Source: Roseobacter sp. SK209-2-6
Lineage (GTDB): Bacteria > Pseudomonadota > Alphaproteobacteria > Rhodobacterales > Rhodobacteraceae
DNA length: 64,000 nt
Direction: 5' to 3'
Assembly (NCBI RefSeq): GCF_000169455.1
Contig: NZ_AAYC01000006.1
Coordinates: 124,001 to 188,000, forward strand
Shown: positions 3-7,205 of the stretch, piece after piece
How positions within the stretch are numbered: the stretch's first letter is position 1
Layout: the number at the start of each line of letters is the position of its first letter
Made by a program: the position numbers and the translations under genes
Notes under the pieces: generated by a model
The model's input: the letters and a program-made list of their open reading frames with translations, nothing else
Told to the model about the DNA's origin: nothing
Database searches by the model: none

Positions 3-530
3 TATCCCGCTGCGTTTCTGGAAGCCTACTATGATGCAGATCTCGCACTCCGCGATTCGACACTGCAATTCGGGTTAACCCAAAACGGTGTTACCAGCTG
101 GATCGAACTTGAAGAGCAAGGCTGGGATAACACCACATTCCTTTTGGCCAAGCAGTTTGGGATTGAAGACGGCACCTGCTTTGCCATTGAAGTTGAAGGC
201 CGCAAATCGATAGCCAGCATTTCCCACAAGACGGGGCAACAGCCGCCACAATCAGTGCTGGATCGCTGTATGGATGCCCTCAAGCTCGCGACTTTGAGCG
301 TGGCACAGGAACGACGCACTCCCTCCTACTCACAATGCACGATGGAGTATCTTGAAGCTGTTGCTGCGGGTGGATCTCTCAATGAGGTCGCCGAGACTTT
401 GGGATTAAGTTACCATGGCGCCAGGGCAAGGCGGATCAATGCACATAAAGAAATTGGTGCTAAGAATGATGCCCATGCCATTGTGATTTCAATCCGGGAG
501 GGTGTGTTCAGCCCCTATCGAACAGTATAG
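3..530 (+). CDS. LuxR-family quorum-sensing regulator (5' truncated by window)
   Basis: This is the C-terminal part of an autoinducer-binding LuxR-type transcription factor. The reading frame is open from base 3, so the start lies outside the window. About 100 residues of the ligand-binding domain tail are followed by a C-terminal helix-turn-helix of roughly 60 residues containing EVAETLGLSYHGARARRINA. That HTH is a variant of the usual LuxR type: the typical glycine and tryptophan positions before the recognition helix are absent. The stop is 58 bases upstream of a LuxI-type synthase in the same orientation, so the pair probably senses and makes an acyl-homoserine lactone. Signal specificity cannot be read from sequence. 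Confidence 0.85.
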   Translation, partial: YPAAFLEAYYDADLALRDSTLQFGLTQNGVTSWIELEEQGWDNTTFLLAKQFGIEDGTCFAIEVEGRKSIASISHKTGQQPPQSVLDRCMDALKLATLSVAQERRTPSYSQCTMEYLEAVAAGGSLNEVAETLGLSYHGARARRINAHKEIGAKNDAHAIVISIREGVFSPYRTV

Positions 531-559
531 ATAGCCTACCACACCCCTAAAGGTATTCT

Positions 560-583
560 GCTCCTACTACTCAATTTAGGAGC
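560..583 (+). promoter_or_regulatory. Hairpin covering the luxI ribosome binding site
   Basis: Two 7-base arms (560-566 and 577-583) form a perfect inverted repeat. The right arm contains the AGGAG Shine-Dalgarno sequence, six bases before the luxI ATG at 589. If transcribed, the hairpin would sequester the ribosome binding site. A regulatory role is inference. Confidence 0.4.
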
Positions 584-588
584 GAACC

Positions 589-1254
589 ATGATTTCGATA
601 GTCGGCCCCAATCCACACCAGGTTAGTTACCAGAATTTGTTGGATTTTTCCCGCCTGCGCAAGCAGGAGTTTGTTGATCGGCTTGGCTGGGATCTCACCC
701 ATACAGAATCAGCCGAATGGGACGAGTACGACAACCCTAATGCCCTCTATGCCATCGCTTATGAAAACGGCAAATGTGTTGGTGGTGCTCGTTTGCTACG
801 CACGGACAAGAATACGCCTCGCAAAGGTTCCAGTGATCTGACCTTCATGCTGGCGGATTTTCTGGCTGGTCGCCTTTCGACCAGCATGTCCGATGAGGAT
901 ATGAAAGCGACAATTTCGCCAAGTCCGGAAATCTGGGAAATGACCCGATTTGTTGGCAGCCCCAAAGTAACCAAAGCCCTGCTTGGGCATGTAAATGGCT
1001 ACCTGGCACTTCTTGGGGCTCATTCGGTCCTGACACTATCCCCACGATTGATGCCGATCGCGCTAAAACGACTGGGCTATTCTGTGAACGTGTTGAGCAA
1101 ACCCATCGAATTTGATGGCAAGGAATATGTGGCCCTGCAAACGCTGATCCAGCAGCGCTCCGTCCGGAACACACGTATTACAGCCAAAGTGCCGACCAAA
1201 CGTCTCCCAGCGGAGCATCTTCAGGCTCCTGCTGAAATCGCGGCTGTCTTATAG
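589..1254 (+). CDS. luxI: Acyl-homoserine-lactone synthase (LuxI family)
   Basis: It makes an acyl-homoserine lactone signal from S-adenosylmethionine and an acyl carrier. The protein is 221 residues, normal for the family. Invariant LuxI positions are visible: Arg24, Phe28, Trp34, Asp45, Asp48, an Arg in GGARLLRT (68-71 region), and Glu117 with Arg120 in the WEMTRF motif. The ATG at 589 is supported by AGGAG at 578-582. It follows a LuxR gene in the same orientation, a classical pair. A short inverted repeat lies just after the stop (1271-1300) without a clear T-run. The acyl chain made cannot be predicted confidently. Confidence 0.95.
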   Translation: MISIVGPNPHQVSYQNLLDFSRLRKQEFVDRLGWDLTHTESAEWDEYDNPNALYAIAYENGKCVGGARLLRTDKNTPRKGSSDLTFMLADFLAGRLSTSMSDEDMKATISPSPEIWEMTRFVGSPKVTKALLGHVNGYLALLGAHSVLTLSPRLMPIALKRLGYSVNVLSKPIEFDGKEYVALQTLIQQRSVRNTRITAKVPTKRLPAEHLQAPAEIAAVL

Positions 1255-2046: not shown

Positions 2047-2337
2047 TGGTACGGGCGGGGGGACTTGAACCCCCACGGGCTTGCGCCCCACGGATTTTCT
2101 TACCAGCTACGGCTTTCACCGCCACCCCTAGGGGCTTTGTGGTCTGGACTATCCCTTCACCCTAGCTTTCGCCTTAGGCGCTGCCCGTCTAGTCTCTACA
2201 CCTTCCCCCTTTCGGGGGCTTGGCTCGGGATTGCCATTTGACAGGTTTCCCCGAATTTGAGCAGTTCTACACCAGAGTTTCCAACCGGCGCACTCAATAA
2301 TCTAAGTCCGATGCGTCTACCATTCCGCCACGCCCGC
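2047..2337 (-). tRNA. tRNA-Leu(UAA), interrupted by a group I intron
   Basis: The 5' half at 2337-2304 has acceptor strand GCGGGCG and the leucine-type D arm ending in GGACTT. The 3' half at 2098-2047 begins AAAATCCG and carries a long variable arm, a GGGGG/CCCCC T arm and encoded CCA. Joining the halves gives the anticodon loop CTTAAAA, so the anticodon is UAA. The acceptor stem pairs over seven positions with one G-U at the end. The pair between positions 27 and 43 is a T-T mismatch. The split falls after U34, the position used by cyanobacterial tRNA-Leu introns. Confidence 0.9.
2099..2303 (-). ncRNA. Group I self-splicing intron in tRNA-Leu(UAA)
   Basis: It is 205 nt long and has no ORF. 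On the minus strand the 5' exon end ACTT pairs with GAGT eight bases into the intron, making a P1 helix with the required U-G wobble at the splice site. The intron ends in G, the omega G. Conserved core segments are visible: AGAGACTAGACGGGC (R region, P3/P7) and AAGGGATAGTCC (S region). Length and core are close to the small bacterial tRNA introns such as that of Azoarcus tRNA-Ile. Splicing is expected from family knowledge but not shown here. Confidence 0.9.
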
Positions 2338-2456: not shown

Positions 2457-3080
2457 TTAGATGTCTTCGCCTTGCTCTGACGGGAGTTGATCCGAAGGCG
2501 CTGCCAGCGGGCCACCTGGAACAGCCAGCCTACGCTCTGGAAGCCAAGGGTTGAGCAAGAGAGCCTCTCTCAGAGCGATCCTGGCCTCGGGGATCCGCTG
2601 GAGTCCATAGAGTGACAAGGCCCTCCCGCTATGGGCAGCCACATGACGCGGGGACAATTCTATTGCCTGCTCCAGGTCAGCTAGGGCCTGCGCGAAATCG
2701 CGTTGCAGAAAATGGACAAAAGCACGCTGGTTGTAGCCTTCGGCGTAGTTCGGACAATAAGAGATCAGCTGATCGAAATCCTCTAGCGCGCCAAGGTAAT
2801 CATAGGACGCTCTTCGGTTCATTCCCCGATCCAGGATTTCCTGAGCTTGTGCATTCGGGGCATCGGCCCAAAACGCCCACATCTGATTGGAGATCTCGAA
2901 AGCCTCCCCCTCATTCTCAGCACGCTGGACCTGTGTGATCAATGCTTCAAGCGAACCGCTATGATCTGGCGCGCCGGGGCAAGTCTCTGCTTCCGCAAAA
3001 GAAGGGGAAAGCCCCAGAAGACTGGCAAAAACAACTGCACTCACAGCCCTTAGCTTTGCCAGACGATTGCGGGGAAACAT
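2457..3080 (-). CDS. Exported tetratricopeptide-repeat protein
   Basis: The protein has a clear signal peptide (basic start, hydrophobic stretch, cleavage after a SFAEA-type site) and then about 180 residues with three TPR-like helical pairs in the second half, seen as spaced A, Y, A and P positions such as YDYLGALEDFDQLISYCPNY and the following ALADLEQAIELSP. TPR domains mediate protein contacts; the partner is unknown. Its product is predicted to be periplasmic. I chose the ATG at 3080 because it begins a good signal peptide; in-frame starts at 3110 and 3116 are possible. It is transcribed toward the tRNA-Leu gene on the same strand. Confidence 0.8.
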   Translation of the reverse strand: MFPRNRLAKLRAVSAVVFASLLGLSPSFAEAETCPGAPDHSGSLEALITQVQRAENEGEAFEISNQMWAFWADAPNAQAQEILDRGMNRRASYDYLGALEDFDQLISYCPNYAEGYNQRAFVHFLQRDFAQALADLEQAIELSPRHVAAHSGRALSLYGLQRIPEARIALREALLLNPWLPERRLAVPGGPLAAPSDQLPSEQGEDI

Positions 3081-3200
3081 ACCCTGGGGGAAAACAAAAC
3101 GCGTCACCATAAACACTATGCTGCGGCAAAAAGGTTTAATTTCAAGTCAAGTTTTAGTGTAAAATGCAGCTCAGCACCATTCAGCACCCAGTAGCGCGCC

Positions 3201-3683
3201 TTAGAAACCTCCTAATGGGCCGTCCTCTTTCACCGCCTGCATCGCCACATAGGTCGAGGTAGAGGCAACATGCGGCAGCGAGGAAATCTTCTCACCCAGC
3301 ACCTGGCGATAGGCCGTCATCGATTGCGTTCGCACCTTGAGCAGATAGTCAAAATGCGACGCCATCATATGGGCTTGCTCGATTTCAGGCACCTTGGTGA
3401 TCGCGGCGTTGAACTTGGTCAGAGCTGCCTCTCGCGTGTCGTCAAGCTTCACCTCAACAAAAGCGACATGGTCCAGACCCAGTCTGATTGGGTCCACCAA
3501 AGCCCGATACCCGGTGATCACCCCTTCGCTTTCTAGCCGACGCAGCCGCGCCTGGGTTGGAGATTTTGACAGGCCAATCCGGCGGGCCAGATCCGCTATG
3601 GAAATCCGCCCCTCTGCAGCCAACACATTGAGAATCTCCGTGTCATAGCGATCCAGCTGCACGGCACTCATTTGGACTGTCAT
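3201..3683 (-). CDS. putR: Lrp/AsnC-family regulator of proline use (PutR)
   Basis: This 160-residue Lrp/AsnC regulator has an N-terminal winged HTH (IADLARRIGLSKSPTQARLR, about 29-48) and a C-terminal RAM ligand-binding domain. It is divergent from putA with 114 bases between the starts. This arrangement is standard for PutR, which activates putA in response to proline in alphaproteobacteria. The ATG at 3683 (MTVQMSAVQLD) fits the family start; an upstream start at 3725 would add 14 unlikely residues. Assignment as PutR rests on the neighbour rather than on residues unique to it. Confidence 0.9.
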   Translation of the reverse strand: MTVQMSAVQLDRYDTEILNVLAAEGRISIADLARRIGLSKSPTQARLRRLESEGVITGYRALVDPIRLGLDHVAFVEVKLDDTREAALTKFNAAITKVPEIEQAHMMASHFDYLLKVRTQSMTAYRQVLGEKISSLPHVASTSTYVAMQAVKEDGPLGGF

Positions 3684-3797
3684 TTTCGAAACCTCGACGC
3701 AAATGAACCAAAGATTCAGAAACAAAAGTCGATTGTCCTGAATACTTCGATGTAAACTGCATCAAACGCCTATCGCAACCCATTTGGAGACCCAGGT

Positions 3798-6700
3798 ATG
3801 AGCCAGTTGAACAAATTGCGTCACCAGATTGATGCCGGAACCTATGTGGATCAGCAGGAAAAATTTCACGAACTGTACGCTATGGCTGCACTGAGTGAGG
3901 CTGACCGGAAAAAGATCTCCGCCAATGCGGCAGCCCTGGTGCGCGATATTCGCGGCCATTCAAGCCCCGGTTTGATGGAGGTTTTCCTTGCGGAATATGG
4001 GCTATCCACTGATGAGGGCGTTGCCCTGATGTGCCTGGCCGAAGCCCTCTTGCGGGTGCCGGATGCCGATACCATCGATGCCTTGATCGAAGATAAAATC
4101 GCCCCTTCGGATTGGGGCAAGCACCTGGGCAAATCCTCGTCCTCTCTAGTCAATGCCTCAACCTGGGCCCTAATGCTGACCGGCCGGGTTCTGGACGAGG
4201 ACCGCAGCCCTGTTGGTGCCCTGCGCGGAGCCATCAAGCGGCTGGGTGAGCCAGTGATCCGTACGGCTGTTGGCCGAGCGATGAAGGAAATGGGGCGTCA
4301 GTTTGTGCTGGGCGAAACCATTGAAAGCGCCATGAAACGGGCGGCAGGTATGGAAGAAAAGGGCTATACCTATTCCTATGACATGCTGGGCGAAGCCGCG
4401 CGCACCGAAGCGGATGCAGCGCGCTACCACCTGGCCTATTCCAAAGCGATCTCGGCGATTGCAGCAGCATGCTCGAGCGACGACATCCGCAAGAACCCCG
4501 GTATTTCCATCAAGCTCTCGGCTCTGCACCCTCGCTATGAGTTGGCCCAGGAAAAGCGGGTCATGGAAGAGCTGGTCCCCCGGATCAAGGCGCTCGCCCT
4601 CTTGGCCAAGGCCGCCAAGATGGGCCTTAACATCGATGCTGAAGAAGCGGATCGCCTGTCTCTGTCGCTGGAAGTGATTGAAGAGGTCGTGGCGGATCCC
4701 GCGCTTGCAGGGTGGGACGGTTTTGGCGTGGTGGTGCAGGCCTATGGCCCCCGCACAGCCGCAGCAATTGATGCGCTATATGCAATGGCAGAAAAATATG
4801 ACCGCCGCTTTATGGTTCGCCTGGTCAAGGGCGCGTATTGGGACACCGAAGTCAAACTTGCCCAGGTCGAAGGTGTCGATGGTTTCCCAGTCTATACCAA
4901 CAAGGCCCTGACCGATGTCTCCTATATTGCCAATGCGCGCAAACTTCTGGGCTTGACGGACCGGATTTATCCTCAGTTTGCCACCCATAATGCCCATACG
5001 GTCAGCGCCATACTGCATATGGCCGAAGACAAGGAGGCCTATGAGTTCCAACGCCTCCACGGTATGGGGGAAACCCTGCACAATATGGTGTTGGAGCAGA
5101 ACCAGACCCGTTGCCGGATTTACGCCCCTGTCGGTGCGCATCGTGACCTTCTGGCCTATCTGGTGCGCCGTCTTCTGGAGAATGGTGCCAACTCTTCCTT
5201 TGTGAACCAGATCGTGGACGAAAACGTCTCACCCAGCATTGTAGCGGCGGATCCCTTTGTCGCGGCCTCTGATTGTGCGAACCAGATCCCGACAGGCCCT
5301 GATCTGTATGCTCCGGAACGTCCAAATTCCATCGGCTTCGATCTGGGTCACGCCCCGACACTGGAACGTATTGAGGCGGCCCGCGCCTCTTGGCGGCGCA
5401 TGCGCTGGGAGGTGACTCCTCTGCTGGCTGGCGAGGCGGAGCCGGAAGCGGCGGAAGATGTGACCAATCCCGCCGATCTCTCGGTCACTGGCAAGGTCTC
5501 ACCCTCCTCCGCTGCTGATGTGGAACTCGCGCTTGCCTCTGCCGCCCCCTGGGATGCCCCTGCCGCTGAGCGCGCAGAGATTTTGAACCGGGCTGCCGAC
5601 CTCTATGAGCAGAATTTCGGAGAGCTTTTTGCAATCCTGGCACGCGAAGCAGGCAAGAGCATCCCGGATGCGGTGGCCGAACTTCGCGAGGCGGTGGATT
5701 TCCTGCGGTACTACGCGGCCCGCATTCCGGATGCACCGGCCGCAGGCACCTTTACCTGCATTTCGCCATGGAACTTCCCTTTGGCAATCTTCTCTGGCCA
5801 GGTCGCCGCAGCGCTGGCCTGCGGCAATGCAGTCCTTGCCAAACCCGCAGAGCAGACGCCGATCATCGCATTCCGTGCAATCTCCCTTCTGCACGAAGCC
5901 GGAGTACCCCGTGCGGCCCTGCAGCTGCTGCCCGGTCGCGGATCCAAGATCGGGGGCGCTCTGACAGGTGATCCGCGCGTGAACGGTGTTGCCTTTACTG
6001 GCTCTACCGCCACGGCCCTGCGCATTCGTAGCACCATGGCCGAGAACCTTCAGCCCGGCGCGCCCCTGATCGCTGAGACAGGTGGTTTGAACGCCATGAT
6101 CGTCGACAGCACAGCCCTGCCCGAACAGGCCGTCCAATCCGTGATCGAAAGCGCCTTCCAGTCCGCAGGACAGCGTTGCTCCGCTCTGCGGTGCCTCTAC
6201 CTGCAAGAGGATATCGCCGATGACGTGCTGACCATGCTGGAAGGCGCGATGGACCTGCTGAACCTCGGCGATCCATGGCATTTGTCCACGGACAGCGGCC
6301 CGGTCATCGACGCCAATGCTCGCGCAGGCATTCTCGCCCATATCGACCAGGCACGCAGTGACGGTCGCGTCCTCAAAGAGTTGCGACCACCACAGGGCGG
6401 CACCTTTGTCGCTCCGACCCTGATCGAAGTCTCCGGGATTGGAGATCTGAAAGAAGAAATCTTTGGGCCTGTACTGCATGTGGCGCGTTTCAAATCCCAG
6501 GATCTCGACCGGGTGATCAGCGGCATCAACGCAACGGGCTATGGGCTGACCTTTGGTCTGCACACCCGGATTGATGACCGGGTGCAATATGTCTGCGACA
6601 AGGTCCATGCCGGCAATATCTATGTCAATCGCAACCAGATCGGAGCAATCGTCGGGAGCCAGCCCTTTGGTGGTGAAGGCCTTTCCGGCACCGGCCCCAA

Positions 6701-7205
6701 GGCGGGTGGCCCCAATTATCTGGCCCGCTATTGCGCGCCGGATCGTCAGAAAAGCAAAGAGAGCTGGGGCAACACGATTGCTGATCTCCCCGGTGAAAGC
6801 GGCATCCCCGGTCGTCCGGTCACAACCTCCCTGCCCGGCCCAACAGGCGAATCCAATCGCCTGACCACCTCTGCCCGCCCGCCACTTCTGTGCATGGGAC
6901 CCGGTCCTGAGGTTGCAGCGGCACAGGCCAAAGAAGTGATTGGCCTGGGTGGCACCGCAATCGAAGCCCATGGCATGTTCGACCTGCACCGGTTGGAATT
7001 CATCCAAGGTATCGCCGGGGTCCTATGGTGGGGGGATGAACTGACCGGGCGTGAGATTGAGCGCACGCTGGCCAAGCGTGACGGTGCGATCCTGCCCCTG
7101 ATCCCAGGCCACCCGGATCGTGCGCGCGTTCTGGCAGAACGGCATGTCTGCGTCGACACAACGGCTGCTGGCGGCAATGCCTCGCTGCTGGGTGGAGCTG
7201 GCTAG
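3798..7205 (+). CDS. putA: Bifunctional proline dehydrogenase / P5C dehydrogenase PutA
   Basis: It oxidises proline to glutamate in two steps, FAD-dependent then NAD-dependent. At 1135 residues it is a full-length bifunctional PutA without the N-terminal ribbon-helix-helix DNA-binding domain of the E. coli type, which agrees with a separate PutR regulator. The proline dehydrogenase barrel covers roughly residues 60-480 and includes RLVKGAYWDTE near 340. The aldehyde dehydrogenase part covers about 560-980, with AETGGLN and the catalytic cysteine in SAGQRCSALR near 793. A C-terminal extension follows. The enzyme is expected to be peripherally bound to the inner membrane. The minus-strand ORF opposite it is a shadow. 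Confidence 0.97.
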   Translation: MSQLNKLRHQIDAGTYVDQQEKFHELYAMAALSEADRKKISANAAALVRDIRGHSSPGLMEVFLAEYGLSTDEGVALMCLAEALLRVPDADTIDALIEDKIAPSDWGKHLGKSSSSLVNASTWALMLTGRVLDEDRSPVGALRGAIKRLGEPVIRTAVGRAMKEMGRQFVLGETIESAMKRAAGMEEKGYTYSYDMLGEAARTEADAARYHLAYSKAISAIAAACSSDDIRKNPGISIKLSALHPRYELAQEKRVMEELVPRIKALALLAKAAKMGLNIDAEEADRLSLSLEVIEEVVADPALAGWDGFGVVVQAYGPRTAAAIDALYAMAEKYDRRFMVRLVKGAYWDTEVKLAQVEGVDGFPVYTNKALTDVSYIANARKLLGLTDRIYPQFATHNAHTVSAILHMAEDKEAYEFQRLHGMGETLHNMVLEQNQTRCRIYAPVGAHRDLLAYLVRRLLENGANSSFVNQIVDENVSPSIVAADPFVAASDCANQIPTGPDLYAPERPNSIGFDLGHAPTLERIEAARASWRRMRWEVTPLLAGEAEPEAAEDVTNPADLSVTGKVSPSSAADVELALASAAPWDAPAAERAEILNRAADLYEQNFGELFAILAREAGKSIPDAVAELREAVDFLRYYAARIPDAPAAGTFTCISPWNFPLAIFSGQVAAALACGNAVLAKPAEQTPIIAFRAISLLHEAGVPRAALQLLPGRGSKIGGALTGDPRVNGVAFTGSTATALRIRSTMAENLQPGAPLIAETGGLNAMIVDSTALPEQAVQSVIESAFQSAGQRCSALRCLYLQEDIADDVLTMLEGAMDLLNLGDPWHLSTDSGPVIDANARAGILAHIDQARSDGRVLKELRPPQGGTFVAPTLIEVSGIGDLKEEIFGPVLHVARFKSQDLDRVISGINATGYGLTFGLHTRIDDRVQYVCDKVHAGNIYVNRNQIGAIVGSQPFGGEGLSGTGPKAGGPNYLARYCAPDRQKSKESWGNTIADLPGESGIPGRPVTTSLPGPTGESNRLTTSARPPLLCMGPGPEVAAAQAKEVIGLGGTAIEAHGMFDLHRLEFIQGIAGVLWWGDELTGREIERTLAKRDGAILPLIPGHPDRARVLAERHVCVDTTAAGGNASLLGGAG

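Follow-up and report, generated by a model that had tools for sequence, protein, structure and literature searches.

A group I intron in a roseobacter tRNA-Leu(UAA) gene and kindred introns in other bacteria, phages and plasmids

Group I introns of bacterial tRNAs are generally assigned to subgroup IC3. The one in Azoarcus tRNA-Ile is a small proteobacterial anticodon-loop intron, in another tRNA and at another site than the intron described here. The trnL intron of cyanobacteria and plastids presumably sits at U34/A35, as does the present intron. In its passages on tRNA introns, PMC4033280 assigns the intron of tRNA-Leu(UAA) to cyanobacteria and plastids and, elsewhere in the text, puts most bacterial and plastid tRNA introns at 37/38. 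The corresponding passages of PMC7717549 describe tRNA-Arg(CCU) introns for Alphaproteobacteria, and report that the Bartonella bacilliformis intron splices in vivo and in vitro. According to one section of a 2014 review, all phage introns then known lay in protein genes (PMC3984707).

Here we analyze a 64,000-nt stretch of the Roseobacter sp. SK209-2-6 genome (the window), in which a tRNA-Leu(UAA) gene is interrupted by a 205-nt insert. We are highly confident that the insert is a group I intron, with the two-step splicing proposed below, and that it stayed at, or came to, its locus by exchange of tRNA alleles. It shares its core, size range and anticodon-loop location with the alphaproteobacterial tRNA-Arg(CCU) introns, and the homology of these cores was supported by an alignment of 25 introns (A1), an intron model (R1) and our trees. 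The two differ in host and site: Arg(CCU) introns follow U36 of tRNA-Arg(CCU) and have the guide GGG, whereas the window intron follows U34 of tRNA-Leu(UAA) and has the guide GAG. The cyanobacterial and plastid trnL intron occupies the same tRNA-Leu(UAA), but its core letters differ from ours in comparison with a single sequence.

Anatomy of the interrupted gene

The gene occupies window positions 2337-2047 on the minus strand as a 34-nt exon, the intron and a 52-nt exon; the coordinates (2047-2337) and intron length of the original prediction were exact. The 5' exon (2304-2337, minus strand) covers tRNA positions 1-34 and ends in GGACUU, its last base being U34, by both the sequence and a splice-site classifier written for this analysis. 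The 3' exon (2047-2098, minus strand; sequence and classifier) starts with A35 A36 and ends in an encoded CCA. The intron between them (2099-2303, minus strand), delimited by Rfam match, alignment and sequence, has a GC content of 55.6% vs 56.6% in the window and is too short to hold an endonuclease gene.

The classifier placed the insertion after U34 in the loop CUU^AAAA, with anticodon UAA, a guide match of 4/4 and an anticodon stem of 4/5 pairs. The internal guide sequence GAGU (2292-2295, minus strand) forms a P1 of only 4 bp with the exon (ACUU:GAGU), including the U34.G pair at the 5' splice site, and the final intron base is the omega G (2099, minus strand). Both the U.G pair and the terminal G were read from the sequence; the classifier demands a T before the intron and a G at its end and is therefore not independent on them. 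Insertion after U34, a P1 with U-G and a terminal omega G had all been predicted, and all were found. P10 appeared weak by eye.

The claim of a group I intron was borne out by Rfam and by covariation in the P3/P7 core. Intron_gpI (RF00028) scored 58 bits over window 2313-2125, above its gathering score of 50 (E 3.9e-12), and this was the sole match of this model in the whole genome (E 6.6e-14). The strands of P3 are CUGCUC (2259-2264) and GGGCAG (2181-2186), and those of P7, which is pseudoknotted with P3, are GACUA (2190-2194) and UAGUC (2147-2151), all on the minus strand. Alignment A1 contained 25 of 30 typed introns from the family, the window's included (L040, L046, L051, L052 and L054 were left out), and we scored P2, P3, P4, P5, P6, P7, P8 with its extension, P9 and a further hairpin. 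In this structure 94.9% of 1118 cells were paired, vs 84.2% in shuffles and 27-45% when partners were slid by 1-3 columns, a comparison with some bias in favor of the named structure over the slid versions because it was partly derived from the same sequences. Its covariation score was 0.329 vs 0.139. P3 and P7 were fully paired in all 25 introns, with changes on both sides in 3/6 pairs of P3 and 1/5 of P7, where the varying pair goes from A-U to G-C in 10/25 sequences. P2 was the weakest helix (76% paired). Chance or artefact as the source of the match was ruled out by the Rfam score, the covariation and the many relatives.

Three neighboring genes, identified by Pfam and synteny, served as syntenic markers: a TPR-repeat protein gene upstream of the tRNA (2457-3116, minus strand), a gene for an Lrp/AsnC-type regulator (3201-3725, minus strand) and putA for bifunctional proline utilization (3798-7205, plus strand). 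Five flanking ORFs were compared with Pfam for a phage or plasmid beside the gene; four had matches, none phage-like. A scan of the plus strand found no promoter-like and one terminator-like site, against 0.2 and 0.9 in shuffles. Window 144-1254 holds a LuxI-type autoinducer synthase gene (Pfam match) preceded by an ORF that had no Pfam match and may be LuxR-like.

Occurrence in bacteria, phages and plasmids

Bacteria. The original prediction implied that such an intron is rare, which did not hold: many Pseudomonadota, and viral contigs too, carry an intron at the same site. Within the family, RF00028 matched 30/394 genomes, 14 of them over the cut-off, a lower bound because five candidates were scored per genome. 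All 30 loci were typed, leaving out a second match in G109: 19 were Leu(UAA) after U34, six Arg(CCU) after U36, two Arg(UCU), two Thr(GGU) and one Thr(UGU). By eye, the guide sequence was GAG for Leu CUU, GGG for Arg CCU, GCC for Thr GGU and GCA for Thr UGU. The intron family occupies anticodon-loop sites of several tRNAs, and its guide sequence is adapted to each of them.

With R1 at E 1e-10, at least 49/385 genomes of the class and at least 41/398 of the phylum matched, with few candidates per genome scored. The best-scoring 51 of these loci were typed by the splice-site classifier, as brute-force ARAGORN typing was ambiguous. They comprised 30 Leu(UAA) including the window's own, 15 Arg(CCU), three apparent Lys loci (the stem of one being weak), one Thr(GGU), one read as Leu(UAG) and one unparsed, shares biased by the construction of R1 from Leu and Arg introns. 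A pattern scan of genome contigs, designed for Leu introns and thus not a census of sites, picked up at least 120 stretches and gave at least 80 loci, 78/80 of which matched R1 at E 0.01 (two of these weakly). After L348, L362, L380 and L390 were left out as cut or weak, typing of 75 matches gave 67 Leu(UAA), seven unparsed and one without a 5' flank. Kindred Leu(UAA) introns occurred in Alpha- and Gammaproteobacteria, Bacteroidota and Acidobacteriota records. Hosts included Rhodovulum, Poseidonocella, Caulobacter, Phenylobacterium, Sphingomonas, Bradyrhizobium, Carnimonas, Peristeroidobacter and Phaeodactylibacter, as well as three metagenome-assembled Acidobacteriota records, and metagenome bins may be contaminated. 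Introns of the same family were also seen in apparent actinobacterial tRNA-Lys(UUU) genes of Microbacterium ihumii (L360) and Tsukamurella sp. 8F (L361).

Phages. A specific 3' splice-site pattern matched at least 120 stretches of viral contigs, among which all 73 new loci matched R1; many of the at least 80 loci of a looser, earlier pattern failed to match. Among the viral matches typed, 94/112 parsed as Leu(UAA), near-duplicates included (L089-L094, L100 and L176 were left out); with two plasmid copies counted in, the figure was 96/114. The phage identity of these contigs comes mainly from their collection of origin. Ten proteins of seven contigs were searched against PHROG; six matched, one of them clearly structural (a tail lysozyme in L226), and four had no match. 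The L226 exons were 96.6% and 89.4% identical to the intronless tRNA-Leu of the isolated cyanophages S-TIM5 and S-CAM4, respectively. Both cyanophage tRNA-Leu(UAA) genes read CUUAAAA without the L226 insert, making them exact empty sites, and an R1 search of the two loci returned no match. Agrobacterium phage Atu_ph07, an isolated jumbo phage, carries an intron-bearing tRNA-Leu(UAA) that is absent from its annotation (L483 1494-1855, R1 152.7 bits), and a 735-kb phage genome likewise has this intron in its tRNA-Leu(UAA) gene (159.2 bits).

Two further viral loci were of other kinds. In Pelagibacter phage HTVC120P an intron of this family (L484 1457-1653, 129.1 bits) lies between two ORFs annotated as capsid protein. 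A 281-kb viral contig holds three consecutive intron-bearing tRNA-like genes: an apparent Arg(UCU), an unparsed Leu-like gene and an apparent Lys(UUU) (L153 3560-5017).

Some of the viral tRNA-Leu(UAA) introns contain endonuclease genes. HNH-like ORFs, sense or antisense, occur within introns of 671-861 nt from viral contigs and from five gammaproteobacterial metagenome records, and one intron has LAGLIDADG_2. Thirteen HNH-like ORFs were compared with Pfam: five reached the curated cut-off, six matched below it and two had no match at 0.001; the likeness of the remaining ORFs was judged by eye. The gammaproteobacterial metagenome introns (L394, L386, L346, L358 and L350) are ~690 nt long, lie in tRNA-Leu(UAA), and have an antisense HNH-like ORF much like those of the viral introns.

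Plasmids. The window gene as query matched 1275 plasmid records, and a 451-base query from a plasmid copy matched 1317, 1313 of them at ≥99%. Five plasmid records were opened. In three, from Citrobacter, Escherichia and Acinetobacter (L097, L098 and L101), aac(3)-II is annotated 0.7-2.2 kb from the tRNA; the other two, from Bradyrhizobium, had none, and in one of these (L100) the intron matched and a 5' exon match was absent. Across 11 loci compared, the plasmid intron-bearing tRNA was 92% identical to the Enterovirga aerilata copy over 353 nt, and the longest flank match was ~170 nt upstream, in L337. The plasmid tRNA-Leu(UAA) was most like alphaproteobacterial copies among those compared. 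This intron copy may mark where the aac(3)-II plasmid segment came from.

Movement and site changes. That kindred inserts occupy this spot in phages and in other bacteria suggests that the intron travels between them. Plausible carriers would be the phages and plasmids whose tRNA-Leu genes hold such an intron, in some phages together with an endonuclease gene; the trees contained no phage or plasmid copy close to the window intron. The trees left out introns >300 nt, rows without a Leu(UAA) typing, four genome loci duplicating those of the family, and viral rows more than 90% identical in a plain count of positions; for the careful tree and the AU tests, eight long-branch or doubtful rows were also removed. 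Arg(CCU) introns, six of the 30 family loci, lay among Leu introns in the best trees, and the best careful tree had three site changes in a Leu background, with unsettled bootstrap. A nesting of Arg and Thr introns within Leu introns was considered; the trees settle neither its direction nor the order of the site changes. Three alternatives were not rejected by AU tests: a single clade of all non-Leu rows (p 0.55), a single clade of the bacterial non-gamma Leu rows (p 0.40) and Arg(CCU) with phage and gamma rows (p 0.50); for the phage rows as one clade, p was 0.075. An Anabaena trnL intron, the sole cyanobacterial sequence used, formed a long branch among phage rows.

We tentatively propose a broader picture, which we consider possible and somewhat improbable as a whole. 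A single mobile tRNA-Leu(UAA) intron lineage, which in phages and a number of Gammaproteobacteria includes HNH-like or LAGLIDADG genes, would move between phages, plasmids and bacteria of at least three phyla (four if the Actinomycetota tRNA-Lys versions are counted) and seed chromosomal tRNA-Leu genes at one invariant site. Through changes of guide it would have given rise to the known Arg(CCU) introns and to the Thr, Lys and Arg(UCU) versions. A transfer may also link it to the trnL intron of cyanobacteria and plastids, which is commonly regarded as old and vertically inherited.

History of the copy at the lrp-putA locus

We searched twelve genomes of the genus for tRNA-Leu(UAA) and for the locus. 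In all 11 congeners a tRNA-Leu(UAA) gene without an intron lay at this locus, within ~1.3 kb of the lrp-putA block, leaving unsupported the idea that a whole new tRNA gene had been inserted at a new place. In nine congeners this gene was an identical 87-nt sequence. The other two (L513 in G397 and L514 in G395) carried an intact intronless tRNA-Leu(UAA) next to an incomplete copy of another, as if alleles had been replaced.

The exons of the window gene are closer to those of another genus than to those of a congener. G126, from another genus, has exons 98.8% identical to the window's and a PutA of only 65% identity, and G096 has exons at 96.5%, the intron at 95.1% and PutA at 70%. Congener G340 shows the reverse, with exons at 83.5% (80% by BLAST) and PutA at 87% over 181 residues. 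The G138 allele is also close (exons 97.7%, intron 94.0%), and the 13 kb examined there showed neither lrp nor putA nor a TPR gene. Because exon identity runs against the order of PutA, the data fit either an exchange of alleles or an intron-bearing allele kept here and replaced in the congeners. The intron would then have stayed at, or reached, the conserved lrp-putA locus by tRNA-Leu allele exchange among related genera.

The main rival is strict vertical inheritance, in which the intron was ancestral at the lrp-putA tRNA-Leu(UAA) of the family and most lineages, the 11 congeners among them, have since lost it. Intron-bearing tRNA-Leu(UAA) genes do lie near lrp and/or putA in L379, L342, L041, L049, L373, L356, L359, L331 and L404, and the nearest introns all come from genomes of the same family: in the tree the window intron groups with L036, L047 and one more row, and the sets of two, three and four rows containing it had support of 100/89, 100/84 and 98/84. 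The set of all five nearest rows, however, had none (18/0). Plain loss would leave exons alike, but here exons change together with the intron and against the neighbor genes, two congeners hold an intact tRNA-Leu(UAA) alongside pieces of another, and the close G138 allele lies away from lrp-putA in the 13 kb examined. We therefore regard strict vertical inheritance as unlikely, at perhaps one chance in a few. The original prediction had asked whether the intron was inherited vertically or transferred; the answer was mixed, with a conserved locus and an intron-bearing tRNA allele that departs from its neighbors.

An origin of the window intron by direct transfer of the classical trnL intron, from cyanobacteria or from plastids, would fit the shared tRNA; part of PMC4033280 gives that intron one and the same position in both groups. 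We consider such an origin very improbable: the window intron lies among proteobacterial introns in the trees, and a cyanobacterial-type pattern matched 0 viral contigs.

The only UAA gene and the meaning of the intron

The tRNA covariance model gave 49 matches over the cut-off in the genome (29 contigs). Leucine tRNA genes typed elsewhere had the anticodons UAG, CAA, CAG (two) and GAG. Zero-mismatch pattern matches fell in two places, the UAG gene and the intron-bearing UAA gene, and BLAST of the joined exons returned their own two halves, the UAG gene, the CAA gene and a 31-nt piece. A second tRNA-Leu(UAA) was therefore found neither by the RNA model nor by BLAST nor among the 3-mismatch pattern places listed, the situation in which the original prediction held splicing to be essential. 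A tRNA-Tyr gene was likewise not found in the 29 contigs by the tRNA model or one pattern, so the tRNA census may be incomplete and a second UAA gene may have been missed. The absence of tRNA-Tyr could reflect an assembly gap, a filter miss or another interrupted gene. The Arg(CCU) tRNA gene of this genome (L020) is uninterrupted.

UUA accounts for 32/1733 leucine codons, in 21/47 mechanical ORFs of the window. With this as the single tRNA-Leu(UAA) gene found, the reading of UUA probably depends on splicing. After transcription, guanosine would attack after U34, and the freed U34 would then attack after the terminal G of the intron. The exons would thereby be joined into a CUUAAAA anticodon loop and the tRNA matured. 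This reaction is predicted from the anatomy of the intron and from the splicing reported for the Bartonella tRNA-Arg(CCU) intron. Default ARAGORN called only a tRNA-Val in the window and missed the tRNA-Leu gene, as might be expected of a decayed, unspliced copy with UUA read by another tRNA, but intact tested helices and splice sites, the absence of another UAA gene from the searches and the use of UUA codons make this the least probable reading, with hardly any weight. With introns allowed, ARAGORN found the frame, misplaced the junction and called the gene Ser(aga).

In the open-licence literature we found no title or abstract on this intron in proteobacterial tRNA-Leu or phage tRNA genes, and the word "intron" has zero occurrences in PMC7162821 and PMC10747093; the wider pattern of tRNA-Leu introns may be new. 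In the passages concerned, the literature names cyanobacteria and plastids as hosts of the Leu(UAA) intron (PMC4033280) and Alphaproteobacteria as hosts of the Arg(CCU) intron (PMC7717549), and here Leu(UAA) made up 30 and Arg(CCU) 15 of the best 51 loci. Such introns may explain tRNA genes missing from annotations, because tRNAscan-SE 2.0, according to part of its description (PMC8450103), was not designed to detect them. The viral tRNA-Leu introns, some with endonuclease genes, and the exact empty cyanophage sites offer a possible vehicle for the scattered distribution, and the spread of tRNA-Leu introns can be tested in a cultured phage, Agrobacterium phage Atu_ph07.
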